The notes beneath the pieces are model-generated. The model ran no database searches and was not told the DNA's origin. It saw only the letters and a list, made by a program, of their open reading frames with translations. The translations under genes and the position numbers were made by a program. From a virus, in the IMG/VR virus record IMGVR_UViG_3300047089_000067, positions 1 through 34,332 of that record: a DNA stretch of 34,332 bases, one strand, 5' to 3'. Below are positions 2,829 to 12,019 of the stretch, one piece after another (position 1 is the stretch's first letter; the number at the start of each line of letters is the position of its first letter).

Positions 2829-3118
2829 TACTTAACCGCCTCAAGATCCCAGCCGTCGCGGCCGTTCTCGTGGTTTCGCTGCTCCACGCCAGACCAGAGC
2901 TTTGCCGCAGCCTCAGCCGCCTGTTGAGCGGTGTCGTAAATGCCTACCGGAAAGCCATCGATATCGATGAGTCGGAAGCGAACAGGCCGCGAACGTCTCT
3001 GTGCTGCTGGTGTGCTCGTCTGCGCACATGTTTGTGCTTCGTTCTGCAAATCAGGCACAGTTTCGTGCAAGGCAGACGCATTTTGTTCTGATGAAGTCAT
3101 TGATTTCATTAGCTCCAT
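2828..3118 (-). CDS. Phage hypothetical protein downstream of the integrase
   Basis: This encodes 96 residues from an ATG at 3116-3118. Met codons 4 and 7 are other possible starts, and GGAG lies just before codon 4. The N-terminal 40 residues are Gln/Ser/Thr-rich and look disordered. Residues 45-90 form a compact unit (RFRLIDIDGFPVGIYDTAQQ, then AAEAAAKLWSG). It begins 50 bp after the integrase stop on the same strand, with no terminator seen between, so the integrase is not the last gene of its transcript. Confidence 0.6.
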   Translation of the reverse strand: MELMKSMTSSEQNASALHETVPDLQNEAQTCAQTSTPAAQRRSRPVRFRLIDIDGFPVGIYDTAQQAAEAAAKLWSGVEQRNHENGRDGWDLEAVK

Positions 3119-3168
3119 ATCAAAAGTTGCGGCCTCCGTCAGGGGAATTTCCTCTCACGTCTCACCCC

Positions 3169-4152
3169 TTATTTTATAGTCTTTCCGAGTTCTTCGCTTG
3201 GGAATTGTGCTTGTGGTGTGCTCGTCAGCCGGTCGGTAATGGTCTTATCCTCGATCGCGTGACCGTAGGTTTCGAATACGTGGCGGGCAGACTTCCACCC
3301 GCCATGCTTGGCGACCGTGACCGGATCGAACCCGGCATGAAGCATGGACGTTGCGAAGCCGTGGCGAAGGCAATGGGGCGATAGATATTCAATCCCCGCT
3401 CGCTTGCAGGCCGTCTGCCAAACCCTCACTAGCAAGCCCCTATGGCCATATTTGAACGGCGGCGCATCCTTTGATAGATTTGCCAAGGCAATGAACAGCG
3501 GGGCGGGAAGGTGGGCCGTGCGTTCAGCTCCGATCTTGGTTTGCCTAATCAAGACCGTCCGTTTTTGAAGGTTGATGTCCTTCCAGGTGACCGCCAGAGC
3601 CTCGCTAATGCGTGCGCCAGTCAAGAACATGAACATGGCAAGCGCGCCGATCTGCGGCTTGTTGGCCTTCGCAAAGGCTTGCACCCACTCCCATGTGGCC
3701 GGCGTCTTTTCCTTGGTCTCGACCTCGAACCGCTTGACGCGGATAGGCGGACACTGGCCTAGCTCGGCGCAATGGTTGATGATCGCCTGAGTGGGAACGA
3801 TCACATGCCGATTCCACGTTGCCGTACCGGCCTTGGGATAAAGGTCGATCGCTGACTGCTTGATCCCTCCCGGAGTGATGTCCTTCACCAGCGTCTCTTT
3901 CCAATGATCCAGGATCTTGGATAGGAAGCGATCAGGCTTCCCAGCCTTCAAATAAGCGGCGGCGGCGTCCGAAAACCTCAGGACTGCTTGGGGGCCATCA
4001 AGACTACGTTTGAACTCGCGGGCCTCGATGCGGTTCGCGATTTGCTCGGCGACTTCCTTGAGAGTTGTTCCCGTAGTTTCTCGTATGACACGTCCGGCAA
4101 CCTTGCCCCTGACGTGGTAGACTTCGCCCCTCTTGTAGACCGTGAGTGGCAT
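3169..4152 (-). CDS. int: Tyrosine-type site-specific integrase
   Basis: The 327-residue recombinase would insert the phage chromosome into the host and remove it by cutting DNA through a tyrosine. The catalytic set is complete: Arg181 (LTGARISE), Lys206 (RQTKIG), His260 and Arg263 (PHCLRHGFAT), His283 (AKHGGW) and Tyr296 (FETYGH). The N-terminal 50 residues (MPLTVYKRGEVYHVRG onward) form an arm-type DNA-binding domain, followed by a core-binding SAM-like domain. The ATG at 4150-4152 has GGAG nine bases upstream. Its first 57 codons overlap the upstream helix-turn-helix gene in another frame. It lies inside a longer leftward operon and not at its end. No attachment site was recognised. Confidence 0.96.
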   Translation of the reverse strand: MPLTVYKRGEVYHVRGKVAGRVIRETTGTTLKEVAEQIANRIEAREFKRSLDGPQAVLRFSDAAAAYLKAGKPDRFLSKILDHWKETLVKDITPGGIKQSAIDLYPKAGTATWNRHVIVPTQAIINHCAELGQCPPIRVKRFEVETKEKTPATWEWVQAFAKANKPQIGALAMFMFLTGARISEALAVTWKDINLQKRTVLIRQTKIGAERTAHLPAPLFIALANLSKDAPPFKYGHRGLLVRVWQTACKRAGIEYLSPHCLRHGFATSMLHAGFDPVTVAKHGGWKSARHVFETYGHAIEDKTITDRLTSTPQAQFPSEELGKTIK

Positions 4153-4319
4153 CGGAATGACTCCATAATGGCTAGGACATCCTCTTCTGTGAGGGCGATC
4201 CTATTCTTTCCTAAAATCAGGCAGGCGTTAAGTTCTCTTGCACGCTCACGCACACGTCTTTCCGATGTCCCCAACCTCTTGGCGACTTCCCCAGGTTGAT
4301 AAAGGTCGGGCATCGGCAT
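3978..4319 (-). CDS. Helix-turn-helix protein, candidate excisionase
   Basis: This encodes 113 residues. I start it at the ATG at 4317-4319, with AAGG ten bases upstream; an adjacent TTG is also possible. Residues 4-54 (LYQPGEVAKRLGTSERRVRE, then ILGKNRIALTEEDVLAIME) form a MerR/excisionase-type winged helix. Such genes next to an integrase usually encode the directionality factor (established for many phages; inferred here). The last 57 codons overlap the integrase gene in another frame and are Ser/Lys/Arg-rich, so the tail is unusual. It probably binds near the attachment site or regulates the integrase. Confidence 0.75.
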   Translation of the reverse strand: MPMPDLYQPGEVAKRLGTSERRVRERARELNACLILGKNRIALTEEDVLAIMESFRCHSRSTRGAKSTTSGARLPDVSYEKLREQLSRKSPSKSRTASRPASSNVVLMAPKQS

Positions 4320-4341
4320 CAAAGTTGACCTTGAGTTAAAG

Positions 4342-4557
4342 CTATTTCATCCGTTTGGCTTCGATTTGCTGTTGCTGAAGCGTCTTGAACTGCGTCGCCC
4401 CGCCGTCATGGAAGTCCTCGCAGAAGCGCTCGTAAGCAGCCTCAGCCTTGTTCTGCTCACAGTCGTCACAGATGAACTCGCCATATTCGTTTTCGACCAT
4501 CCAAGCTTCGTGATTGCATTCGTCGCATAGGGTATGTCTGCGGGTATCGGTGGTCAT
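4342..4557 (-). CDS. Small zinc-ribbon protein
   Basis: This encodes 71 residues from an ATG at 4555-4557. Two Cys pairs, CDEC at residues 11-14 and CDDC at 30-33, define a small zinc ribbon. A charged helix with a Gln run follows (FKTLQQQQIEAKRMK). The start overlaps the upstream stop as ATGA. Binding of DNA, RNA or a protein is likely, but the partner is unknown. It is in the operon that leads into the integrase. Confidence 0.7.
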   Translation of the reverse strand: MTTDTRRHTLCDECNHEAWMVENEYGEFICDDCEQNKAEAAYERFCEDFHDGGATQFKTLQQQQIEAKRMK

Positions 4558-4727
4558 GCCTCATCCCTCATTTTCTCGTATTCGTAATCTGGATCGCGAA
4601 AGCTTTGCCGGCACTCGCCGGTGCAGCCGCTTGGCTGCCAGCCGCCGCGGAATTCCCAGGGAGACGCGCCACAATGCTCGCAGCGGTCATCGTCAGGGTT
4701 GTGCGTTTTCCAGTCGTCGTATGACAT
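4554..4727 (-). CDS. 57-residue Cys-rich (zinc-binding) protein
   Basis: The ATG at 4725-4727 is preceded by GGTGAT; the longer frame from a TTG upstream would run into the preceding gene and is not used. CEHC near residue 15, followed by CTGEC about 20 residues later, suggests one zinc site. The segment between is Trp/Gly-rich (SPWEFRGGWQPSG). The stop overlaps the next start. It is the second gene of the leftward operon driven from the RHH-controlled promoter. Confidence 0.65.
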   Translation of the reverse strand: MSYDDWKTHNPDDDRCEHCGASPWEFRGGWQPSGCTGECRQSFRDPDYEYEKMRDEA

Positions 4728-4732
4728 CTGGA

Positions 4733-4954
4733 TCACCACGCGCGGGCTTGTTCGAGCGACATGCAACGGCTCAGACCGTTGTGAGGCACGAAGGAGTAAA
4801 GATTGCCGCTGCGGCGTTGACGGAGGACGTACTGATCTGGAAGGTAGTTCTTCGGGGTGGCGATTTTTTCGAGGACTTCGAGATCGTCAACGAACCCGAC
4901 GCGGACTACGTTTCCGATGGACCAGTCTTGCTTTGCTTTGCGGTGGAAGGCCAT
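4733..4954 (-). CDS. First gene of the integrase operon, hypothetical
   Basis: This encodes 73 residues. The ATG at 4952-4954 is chosen because GGGAG lies six bases upstream; the ATG two codons earlier is too close to that site. The protein starts MAFHRKAKQDWSIGNVVRVG and has several short beta strands (QYVLRQRRSGNLYSFVPHNG), suggesting a small barrel. No family is recognised. It stands directly downstream of the promoter and operator at 4976-5008, so it would be the first product when the integrase operon is switched on. Confidence 0.7.
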   Translation of the reverse strand: MAFHRKAKQDWSIGNVVRVGFVDDLEVLEKIATPKNYLPDQYVLRQRRSGNLYSFVPHNGLSRCMSLEQARAW

Positions 4955-4975
4955 GTTCATCTCCCGTTTCGATGG

Positions 4976-4995
4976 GATAGATGATATCAGGTATT
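4976..4995. promoter_or_regulatory. Operator-like site 3 of the RHH node
   Basis: The 20-bp site matches the near-perfect palindrome at 5041-5060 at 16 of 20 positions, sharing the core TGATATCA and the end GTATT. It covers the -10 box (4981-4986) of the leftward promoter, so a bound protein would block that promoter. Confidence 0.6.
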
Positions 4996-5008
4996 CGACC
5001 TTTTGCAA
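4981..5008 (-). promoter_or_regulatory. Predicted leftward sigma70 promoter of the integrase operon
   Basis: Read on the minus strand: -35 TTGCAA (5008-5003), a 16-bp spacer, and -10 TATCAT (4986-4981). Transcription would begin near 4975. That leaves about 20 bases before the ATG at 4954, including a GGGAG ribosome-binding site. The -10 lies inside operator site 3, and the -35 overlaps site 2. Confidence 0.55.
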
Positions 5009-5026
5009 TAGGTGATGTCGTTTATT
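5007..5026. promoter_or_regulatory. Operator-like site 2 of the RHH node
   Basis: AATAGGTGATGTCGTTTATT matches the site at 5041-5060 at 16 of 20 positions and is less symmetrical. It starts 31 bp from site 3 and 34 bp from site 1, close to three helical turns each. The three sites would therefore lie on nearly the same face of the DNA. Confidence 0.5.
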
Positions 5027-5034
5027 TTGGCCCT

Positions 5035-5062
5035 TGTAACAATACGTGATATCATGTATTGT
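5035..5062 (+). promoter_or_regulatory. Predicted promoter of the RHH gene (short or no leader)
   Basis: The -35 is TTGTAA (5035-5040), followed by a 16-bp spacer that is almost wholly operator site 1, and a weak -10 TATTGT (5057-5062). Transcription from this promoter would start at about 5069, next to the ATG at 5070. No ribosome-binding site precedes that ATG. Confidence 0.35.
5041..5060. promoter_or_regulatory. Operator-like site 1 (near-perfect 20-bp palindrome)
   Basis: AATACGTGATATCATGTATT is a palindrome with a single mismatched pair. It begins 29 bp upstream of the RHH gene start, between its predicted -35 and -10. It is the best copy of the three and is probably the main site for autorepression. 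Confidence 0.65.
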
Positions 5063-5069
5063 CGCTGCC

Positions 5070-5237
5070 ATGGGACGCAAACAGATCAACGAAGAGCAAA
5101 TGCCGGCCCGGCTTCCGGGAGGAACCCTAGAGCGGATCGACGCCGTTTTGGACCCGGAAACCAACGAAAAGCGGGCAGACTTCCTTCGGGAAGCTGTGGA
5201 ACGGGAACTGAAAAGGCGAGAGCGCATTGCACGCTAA
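5070..5237 (+). CDS. Ribbon-helix-helix (CopG/Arc-type) regulator
   Basis: The 55-residue protein has the RHH layout. A short strand (EQMPARLP, residues 9-16) is followed by helix 1 (GTLERIDAVL) and helix 2 (KRADFLREAVERELKRRE). RHH proteins bind DNA as dimers of dimers on short repeats (established). Here three matching palindromic sites lie just upstream and cover both this gene's promoter and the leftward integrase-operon promoter, so it probably represses both (inference). The ATG at 5070 has no ribosome-binding site and may be read from a leaderless transcript. It is the only rightward gene among leftward ones between 1 and 11220. Its 3' end overlaps the convergent gene at 5234 by 4 bp. 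Confidence 0.85.
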   Translation: MGRKQINEEQMPARLPGGTLERIDAVLDPETNEKRADFLREAVERELKRRERIAR

Positions 5238-7354: not shown

Positions 7355-8167
7355 TTAAGTCGAAACGTGTTTCATGATTGCTCGCCCGATGATTTCCGGG
7401 ATTTGCGGGACGACTGAATTTCCAAGGGCGTGCATTCTGTCCACCCGATCTGGTATCCCATCCTCGCCTCTGCCCAAGACGGGCGAATCAGCCCCGTCGA
7501 GTTCGGGAAAAGTAATCGGAGAACAGAGGGCAAGTCCAAGCCGCGCGCTGATTGCTCGCGCATCCGCTCCGATCGTTCTGGCTTGCAGCCCCCTCGGTAA
7601 TCGTGCGCCGTCACTGTTGGCAGCATCTTCGCCCACTTCTTCCGGGCGTTGCTTCCCCCAGCCGAAGTGAAGCGGGAGACACCCTGCGCTGTTGGGGTAG
7701 GCAACGATCCAGACACGATCTCGCCAATGATCGGCACCAACGGCGGCAGCAGGAATGCAGTGCCATTCCGCATCATACCCGAGCGCGGCCAAGTCTCCGA
7801 GAACTCGGCCCATCCCTCGAACAAGCAGGTCTGCGACGTTCTCCACGACGACGTATCGCGGTCGAAGTTCGCCAATAATTCTGGCGTACTCGCTCCATAA
7901 TCCCGAGCGCTCGCCGTCAATTCCGATACGCGCTCCGGCTGAGCTGATGTCCTGGCACGGAAAGCCTCCGCATATGATGTCCACAGGTCCGACTGCCGCC
8001 CCTGTGATGGTTCTAACGTCGTCGAAGATCGGGATGCCAGGCCAGTGCTTGGCGAGGACTCGTCGGCAGAAGGGGTCAATCTCACAGAACGCGACGGTTC
8101 GCATCCCAGCTCTTTCGAGCCCGAGGCTGAATCCGCCAATTCCTGAGAAGAGATCGAGGACATTCAC
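7355..8167 (-). CDS. C5-cytosine DNA methyltransferase
   Basis: The 270-residue enzyme transfers a methyl group from S-adenosylmethionine to carbon 5 of cytosine. Motif I is LDLFSGIGGFSLG (residues 4-16). Motif IV, GGFPCQDIS, holds the catalytic Cys71. Motif VI is VVVENVADL (Glu109). Motif VIII is RDRVWIVA (149-156), and the last motif is ALGNSVVPQIPEIIG near 246-260. The target-recognition part is short, so the protein is at the small end of the family. No restriction enzyme is next to it, so it is probably an orphan that protects phage DNA or alters expression (inference). The start is a GTG at 8165-8167. A second long frame is nested inside it. Confidence 0.93.
   Translation of the reverse strand: MNVLDLFSGIGGFSLGLERAGMRTVAFCEIDPFCRRVLAKHWPGIPIFDDVRTITGAAVGPVDIICGGFPCQDISSAGARIGIDGERSGLWSEYARIIGELRPRYVVVENVADLLVRGMGRVLGDLAALGYDAEWHCIPAAAVGADHWRDRVWIVAYPNSAGCLPLHFGWGKQRPEEVGEDAANSDGARLPRGLQARTIGADARAISARLGLALCSPITFPELDGADSPVLGRGEDGIPDRVDRMHALGNSVVPQIPEIIGRAIMKHVST
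7372..8163 (-). CDS. Long ORF nested in the methyltransferase gene (coding status uncertain)
   Basis: A 263-codon frame starts at the ATG 4 bp inside the methyltransferase gene and ends 17 bp before its stop, on the same strand in another frame. Its product contains FSETWPRSGMMRNGTAF, LVPIIGEIVSGSLPTPTA and SWAEARMGYQIGWTE, then a Ser/Arg/Lys tail. Proteins with these phrases are often annotated beside phage C5 methyltransferases, so it may be real. Equally, the resemblance may be only the out-of-frame reading of conserved methyltransferase motifs, because LVPIIGEIVSG is the same DNA as the RDRVWIVA region. Confidence 0.25.
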   Translation of the reverse strand: MSSISSQELADSASGSKELGCEPSRSVRLTPSADESSPSTGLASRSSTTLEPSQGRQSDLWTSYAEAFRARTSAQPERVSELTASARDYGASTPELLANFDRDTSSWRTSQTCLFEGWAEFSETWPRSGMMRNGTAFLLPPLVPIIGEIVSGSLPTPTAQGVSRFTSAGGSNARKKWAKMLPTVTAHDYRGGCKPERSERMREQSARGLDLPSVLRLLFPNSTGLIRPSWAEARMGYQIGWTECTPLEIQSSRKSRKSSGEQS

Positions 8168-11340: not shown

Positions 11341-11733
11341 TTATTTGGATCCGACCTTGCGATCGGGGAAGGCGGCCTCGAGCATTTGCCGGGCTCGCGC
11401 GAGTTCGTCTTCCGTGCGGCCCTGTAGGAACCTGGCCAGCCAATCCAGATCGGGGTCCACGAAGATATCCACGGGATCGTGGCCCTTGCCGAAAAACTCG
11501 CCTAGTTTGGCCGCCCAAGGGGAGGATGGCGTGCTGGGCTTTTCATCATCCAGCCAGCGAGACAAGAGGCCTTTGTCCACTCCGAGGCTTTCGATTAATT
11601 CGCTTCTCTCGGTGTTCTGGCGCTCCATGAGCTTCGCAAGATAGTGCGGGCGTCTTGGCTGCCGGCTGGCGTAGATGCGCTCTACGGGGCGTTTCTGAGG
11701 CTTGGCGGGCATGGTTGCAAGTATGTCAATCAT
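11341..11733 (-). CDS. Lysogeny repressor, XRE-type helix-turn-helix (CI analogue)
   Basis: This encodes 130 residues from the ATG at 11731-11733; an internal ATG at 11712 is possible. A basic N-terminal arm (MPAKPQKRPVERIYASRQPR) precedes an XRE-type helix-turn-helix at about residues 34-64 (TERSELIESLGVDKGLLSRW). A C-terminal helical part (LDWLARFLQGRTEDELARAR) follows, probably for dimerisation. There is no LexA/CI-type self-cleaving peptidase domain, so induction must work differently from lambda. The gene sits between two operator groups and diverges from the Cro-like gene, as in lambdoid immunity regions. Its role as CI analogue is inferred from that. Confidence 0.82.
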   Translation of the reverse strand: MIDILATMPAKPQKRPVERIYASRQPRRPHYLAKLMERQNTERSELIESLGVDKGLLSRWLDDEKPSTPSSPWAAKLGEFFGKGHDPVDIFVDPDLDWLARFLQGRTEDELARARQMLEAAFPDRKVGSK

Positions 11734-11752
11734 GGCTTCCGAAGTCGTTAGC

Positions 11753-11766
11753 GGCTTGTGCAACAG
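11753..11766. promoter_or_regulatory. Operator OR2-like site
   Basis: GGCTTGTGCAACAG contains the core TTGTGCAAC shared with the other operators (9 of 14 to the best site). An overlapping palindrome GCAAC-A-GTTGC spans 11760-11770. It lies upstream of the rightward -35 and just ahead of the repressor gene, where a bound repressor could control its own gene. Confidence 0.45.
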
Positions 11767-11772
11767 TTGCCC

Positions 11773-11801
11773 TTGACCATCGTTGTTAGTTGTGCAACTA
11801 T
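11773..11801 (+). promoter_or_regulatory. PR-type early rightward promoter
   Basis: The -35 is TTGACC (11773-11778), followed by a 17-bp spacer and -10 AACTAT (11796-11801). The expected start at 11807-11809 is next to the ATG of the Cro-like gene at 11810, so the mRNA should have almost no leader. The promoter has the same -10, spacer length and operator placement as the leftward early promoter. Confidence 0.68.
11787..11800. promoter_or_regulatory. Operator OR1-like site (perfect palindrome)
   Basis: TAGTTG-TG-CAACTA has perfect 6-bp arms around a 2-bp centre and covers most of the rightward -10. It is the best match of four related sites, two on each side of the repressor gene, and is probably the highest-affinity site. 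Confidence 0.7.
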
Positions 11802-11809
11802 CTCCGGCC

Positions 11810-12019
11810 ATGAGCAAACAACTAACCGTCTTGTTGGCTGAGAAGGGACTTCGGCACGCCGATTTGGCGCGCAAGCTCTCGGTCGATAAAAGCACCGTCA
11901 CCCGCTGGGTTGAACGCGGCGTGCCCTTGGTTCGAGTTTTCCAGATCGAAAGGGAAACTGGCATCCCCCGGGAAAAGATCAGGCCTGATTTCTTTGAACC
12001 CGATGAGGCGCACGCATGA
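11810..12019 (+). CDS. cro: Cro-like helix-turn-helix repressor
   Basis: The 69-residue protein has a helix-turn-helix at residues 14-37 (LRHADLARKLSVDKSTVTRW). The tail GIPREKIRPDFFEPDEA is typical of short Cro/YdaS-type phage regulators. It is the first gene of the rightward early transcript and diverges from the repressor. Cro-type proteins turn down the repressor gene and later both early promoters (known for the family). The ATG at 11810 has no ribosome-binding site; its predicted transcript starts within about three bases of it, so translation may be leaderless. The symbol is by analogy of position and fold. Confidence 0.85.
   Translation: MSKQLTVLLAEKGLRHADLARKLSVDKSTVTRWVERGVPLVRVFQIERETGIPREKIRPDFFEPDEAHA

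Follow-up and report, generated by a model that had tools for sequence, protein, structure and literature searches.

An RHH repressor with a promoter-overlapping operator array probably controls itself and a hypervariable divergent operon in temperate phages and plasmids

A predicted 55-residue RHH repressor is encoded in the window, by which we mean the whole 34,332-nucleotide stretch of viral DNA analyzed here (IMG/VR record IMGVR_UViG_3300047089_000067). It is likely that this protein shuts off both its own promoter and that of a divergent, hypervariable operon after a transient burst of transcription, in a module common to temperate phages and plasmids. We read the cassette as a self-contained module of many temperate phages and some plasmids of Alphaproteobacteria, not as a one-off integration switch. 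The features concerned are listed below.

3169-4152, minus strand: tyrosine integrase, 327 aa (PF00589, E 3e-25)
3978-4322, minus strand: excisionase-like HTH protein (phrog_66, E 2.3e-9; phrog_1840, E 1.9e-4)
4342-4557 and 4554-4727, minus strand: two further small leftward genes
4733-4960, minus strand: first leftward gene, 75 aa (73 aa if translation starts at the better-spaced ATG at 4954, after GGGAG)
4976-4995: predicted distal RHH site, plus-strand sequence GATAGATGATATCAGGTATT, over the -10 of the leftward promoter
4981-5008, minus strand: leftward promoter (consensus match), TTGCAA-16-TATCAT, with its -10 within the distal site
5007-5026: predicted middle RHH site, plus-strand sequence AATAGGTGATGTCGTTTATT, adjoining and slightly overlapping the leftward -35
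5034-5062, plus strand: RHH promoter (consensus match), TTGTAA-17-TATTGT, with the proximal site as its spacer
5041-5060: predicted proximal RHH site, plus-strand sequence AATACGTGATATCATGTATT, in the spacer of the RHH promoter
5070-5237, plus strand: predicted RHH repressor, 55 aa, with Gln10 and Pro12 as putative specificity residues

The three sites are 20-bp near-palindromes that start 31 and 34 bp apart, the two weaker copies matching the best one at 16 of 20 positions. Their coordinates, spacings, and match counts had been given correctly in the original prediction. The core TGATATCA is present in both the distal (4982-4989) and the proximal (5047-5054) site, while that of the middle site (TGATGTCG, 5013-5020) is degenerate. 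With up to 3 mismatches allowed, the 20-mer had no match across 100 dinucleotide shuffles of the window. A 20-bp profile built from 74 GATATC-type sites taken from other loci only (consensus AATAGATGATATCATCTATT) recovered exactly these three sites, with scores of 27.6 (proximal), 27.0 (distal), and 15.9 (middle). No further strong site was found by this profile in the 34-kb window, where the next best match scored 9.0, as in shuffled sequence. As the sites occur nowhere else in the window, the targets there would be the two promoters of the array.

The placement originally claimed for the sites was borne out as well: the proximal site lies inside the -35/-10 spacer of the RHH promoter and the distal site covers the leftward -10, such that both divergent promoters are overlapped. 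An alternative rightward reading (TTGGCC-17-TATCAT, 5027-5055) was ranked higher by a mechanical scan; TTGTAA-17-TATTGT is the reading conserved in relatives, appearing as TTGACC-17-TATTGT in loci L032, L007, and L008, and the RHH promoter spacing was the same in 14 loci of the scan. An equivalent of the leftward promoter was present in most relatives belonging to the window's array class. The two promoters of the array were the only sigma-70-like matches with an extended -10 in the region from 2.9 to 12.4 kb, where the total count of matches was no higher than in shuffled sequence. Because the -10 of the RHH promoter ends 7 nt ahead of the ATG, the RHH mRNA is probably leaderless. On the minus strand, a frame of 164 codons at 4733-5227 stays open across the operators and the region complementary to the RHH gene, and given this frame, leftward read-through could be translated across the array. 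One speculation is that an early operon to the right of the array reads through leftward, antisense to the RHH gene, and in this way reduces RHH expression during lytic growth.

The sites had also been described as lying on nearly the same face of the helix. Spacings of 31 and 34 bp are indeed roughly in phase, but this phase is not kept in the wider set; helical phasing as a design principle was rejected, as relatives have spacings of 18, 25, 31, 34 to 36, and 40 bp or more. With spacing so variable among relatives, the sites seem to be positioned by promoter elements and not by phase.

Relatives of the RHH protein were numerous in IMG/VR and were also found in a few named phages (Sinorhizobium phage StopSmel and Caulobacter phage DMCA) and on plasmids of Alphaproteobacteria. 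Among loci encoding relatives of the 55-residue RHH protein, at least 63 besides the window, most of them IMG/VR contigs, carry 2 to 4 copies of a site upstream of that gene. The original prediction implied that close relatives of the RHH gene should be accompanied by the sites, and reading upstream of each start codon located them beside nearly all intact ones. The RHH relatives without an array (L040, L074, L080/L081, L092, and L013) were distant, truncated, or set in other contexts, and a scan of genome contigs yielded a single distant relative, also without an array. A three-site similarity score exceeded those of all 40 shuffles in 58 of 85 loci, in a test that is blind to two-site arrays.

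In the layout class of the window, the cores lie at -23, -57, and -88 from the start codon, and the layout is base-identical in L016, L017, L019, L020, and L083. A four-site class has cores near -23, -58, -83, and -101, and a two-site class has spacings of 25 to 40. Across all classes, 38 of 64 arrays had the proximal core at -22 or -23; in most three- and four-site arrays, it stays at this position, inside the spacer of the RHH promoter. The statement that no described phage has such a layout held for the papers found, as literature searches on phage RHH proteins brought up nothing specific on arrays of this kind, but among phage contigs that carry no annotation such a layout is common.

The array recurs with identical geometry but different cores, repressor and target having changed together. 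In Arc, Gln9, Asn11, and Arg13 contact bases (PMC12645479), and residues 10, 12, and 14 of the RHH protein were singled out from an alignment with the Arc strand ahead of any statistics, residues 10 and 12 corresponding to Arc Gln9 and Asn11. All proteins with Q10/P12 were associated with GATATC sites, and those with D10/Q12 were associated with CATATG. Likewise, I12 proteins had mostly GTAATC or GTTATC, S12 proteins had GATAGC, K10/M12 proteins had GGTATC, and P10 proteins had the core CGATATCG. Among 52 positions, 12 and 10 were the most informative on the core (1.85 and 1.76 bits out of 2.31, against means of 0.60 and 0.53 after shuffling), in a set that is related by descent and with core classes that were assigned by hand from repeated hexamers, the reverse complements GATAAC and GTTATC being left as two separate classes. 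Pairs of loci alike at residues 10 and 12 had the same core in 98 to 100% of cases, whatever their identity elsewhere, and pairs unlike at these residues had the same core in 6 to 24% (at 40 to 80% identity). For residues 12 and 10, there is thus statistical support for the RHH mode of base recognition, in which every other residue of the N-terminal strand takes part.

Held-out plasmid loci, which were fetched afterwards, had the predicted core in four of five cases (L095, L096, L098, and L099). The exception, L097 (D10, V12), had AGATATCT versus the CATATG predicted from L057. In this locus, from an Azospirillum oryzae plasmid, five AGATATC-type sites were observed at 4870-5000, upstream of the D10/V12 RHH gene. 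Overall, a single small RHH family offers a natural series of more than 60 repressor-operator pairs that share a fixed geometry and comprise about ten different cores, so that residue swaps could test the DNA code of the RHH strand directly.

By sequence relation, the protein belongs to the RHH (CopG/Arc/MetJ) superfamily. The family profile matched the solved CopG-family regulator 7by2 (E 3.1e-5 and 0.0016), and Pfam RHH_1 matched 13 of 69 members at an E value of 0.1 or below (best, 2e-4), the window protein itself being without a match. The Arc family (PF03869) matched one of the 69 members, at E 0.028, which is no clear sequence match. In the AlphaFold monomer (pLDDT 89.8), an extended N-terminal part precedes helices at residues 19-26 and 35-54; the strand forms only in the dimer. 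A Foldseek search of the PDB with the 55-residue monomer returned nothing useful, and VIA-align gave a Z score of 5.7 to YiiF (2k5j) over 53 residues, in a comparison where only five chains were aligned and Foldseek itself was weak. The YlcI/YnfO family (NF041551) was matched weakly by most of 12 sampled members, and one plasmid relative is so annotated; the window protein scored 21.6 bits, below the curated cutoff of 30. The papers searched contained nothing specific on YlcI/YnfO function and yielded no operator or function for that family.

Most array loci have a divergent gene that is preceded by a ribosome-binding site and starts about 45 to 130 bases before the RHH start codon, and further small leftward genes usually come after it. 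The first leftward genes are hypervariable: 66 genes fell into 60 clusters. A conserved leftward partner gene was rejected, as 55 of the 66 share a cluster with no other first gene. Among the loci examined, only L007 and L008 contain relatives of the window's first leftward gene, which is otherwise an orphan. Retention of the window's neighbors beside other RHH copies was also rejected, given these two loci and the presence of integrase relatives near few copies. Matches to Pfam, PHROGs, or NCBIfam were few and mostly to HNH endonucleases or uncharacterized families, with HNH endonucleases among the first genes and methyltransferases and HNH endonucleases among the second or third genes. With a conserved regulator next to small genes that are unrelated to each other, the cassette points to a cargo slot in phages whose annotation is poor, and guilt-by-association searches could use it to find genes needed early on entry.

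We suggest that the RHH protein binds the three palindromic sites and that, once bound, it would exclude RNA polymerase from its own rightward promoter and from the promoter of the leftward operon. On entry of the DNA into a repressor-free cell, both promoters would fire; as RHH protein builds up, both would be shut, giving a leftward burst followed by low steady levels. In the window, the cargo of this burst would consist of the 73- to 75-aa orphan, the two small genes, the excisionase-like gene, and the integrase, reached by read-through. The transient timing is proposed by analogy with two known systems. With Reg, the RHH repressor of p576-type plasmids, expression on entry is followed by silencing as the repressor accumulates, and its authors likened the system to phage anti-CRISPR regulation, in which the phage repressors were noted to be helix-turn-helix proteins (PMC8708921). 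The same shut-off logic has been described for Aca repressors (PMC9410906).

Like Reg, which is found in p576 and clade II pLS20-family conjugative plasmids and acts on its own and establishment-gene promoters (PMC8708921), the proposed repressor is an RHH protein with a transient-entry logic and, judging from the placement of sites and promoters, has sites in its own promoter. However, the Reg operator occurs at several separate promoters across the plasmid, whereas the window has one array at one divergent promoter pair, of a compact two- to four-site type. Aca1 to Aca10 are also small repressors with inverted-repeat sites in the promoter of variable phage accessory genes (PMC9410906). They differ in being helix-turn-helix proteins encoded after acr genes in one operon, whereas the window protein is RHH-type in sequence and divergently encoded with no known acr gene detected, nor was any acr family found among the 66 first leftward genes. 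Arc of phage P22 is another small phage RHH repressor, with Gln/x/Asn/x/Arg contacts comparable to Gln10/x/Pro12/x/Arg14 and a 21-bp operator bound by a tetramer (PMC12645479), similar in length to the sites of about 20 bp in the window. It differs in the lack of a clear sequence match and in that the window family combines a variable divergent cargo with arrays that can have as many as four sites.

The RHH protein could alternatively regulate a slot for anti-defense cargo, directed against restriction or CRISPR, with the array giving a short burst on entry. The leftward genes are small and hypervariable, DNA methyltransferases are second or third genes in several loci, and Reg of p576-type plasmids likewise controls establishment genes, including anti-restriction genes (PMC8708921). 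However, in searches of Pfam, PHROGs, and NCBIfam, none of the 66 first leftward genes matched a family known to act against CRISPR or restriction, several leftward genes encode HNH endonucleases, and other copies have partition-gene neighbors, so we consider this function possible but doubtful. Similarly tentative is the broader view of a widespread, undescribed module of Alphaproteobacteria phages and plasmids, in which a two-residue, evolving operator code guards a swappable divergent slot, probably for anti-defense or establishment genes. If true, the module would be the RHH counterpart of the Aca system and could serve as bait in the search for new anti-defense genes.

A dedicated switch for integration, as originally predicted, agrees with the array being tied to the RHH gene and both promoters, apart from the immunity region at about 11.3 to 12.0 kb, but it is not supported as a general function, as integrase placement varies and the first leftward gene differs almost every time. 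That the RHH protein mainly controls xis/int for integration and excision is unlikely. The leftward genes of the window are tightly packed up to xis/int, a scan found no terminator-like site on the minus strand between them, and, of 44 contigs with a tyrosine integrase hit, 33 have the integrase no more than 6 kb away from the RHH gene and almost always on the other strand. However, only 19 contigs have it on the leftward, divergent side, as in the window; in about a dozen, it lies on the other side of the RHH gene and is transcribed towards it, and in others, it is far away. Furthermore, no tyrosine integrase was detected in the Mu-like phage StopSmel, which carries the cassette, and plasmid copies adjoin parA/parB (Sphingobium and Sphingomonas) or conjugation genes; the gene that would be directly controlled is almost never the same. 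The integrase is therefore a frequent neighbor and not a conserved target, and in the window phage it is probably a downstream passenger of the divergent operon that we propose to be repressed.

Some neighboring features were also observed. In the likely immunity region of the window (11341-12019), an HTH protein is encoded leftward and a YdaS/Cro-like protein (PF15943) divergently from it. A C5-cytosine methyltransferase-like gene lies at 7355-8167, where a second same-strand frame (7372-8163) is open for 263 codons. In L096 and L099, which are Sphingobium and Sphingomonas plasmid loci, the leftward part of the cassette (at about 2900-5000) consists of a gene for a small protein and, after it, parA and parB.

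Many RHH proteins that regulate their own genes through palindromic operators are antitoxins, and the array could by that token be a toxin-antitoxin operator. We regard this as very improbable, as the RHH gene stands singly, with no conserved codirectional partner and a next gene that is usually convergent, and the divergent genes are unrelated to one another. A partition or centromere site bound by the RHH protein, as by ParG or omega, is scarcely credible: the iterated sites, the RHH protein, and the parA/parB genes adjoining the cassette on Sphingobium and Sphingomonas plasmids would fit, but these plasmids have their own ParB, the site positions follow promoter elements at a constant distance to the start codon, and no ParA family match was found in the leftward genes scanned from phage loci.

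Two minor arrangements of the RHH gene were noted. In L015 (4181-5500), L024 (6183-7493), and L029 (6189-7475), the gene immediately downstream of the RHH gene, and codirectional with it, encodes an ISL3-family transposase, and L026 has an open reading frame of similar size to this transposase. The RHH gene may ride as a passenger of an ISL3 element, or the spot may be an insertion target. In L018 (1100-1570) and L033 (5650-6125), the RHH domain forms the C-terminal part of a longer protein, whose N-terminal part resembles, by eye, a GIY-YIG/T5orf172-type domain; in L018, two GATATC sites precede the start of the fused open reading frame.
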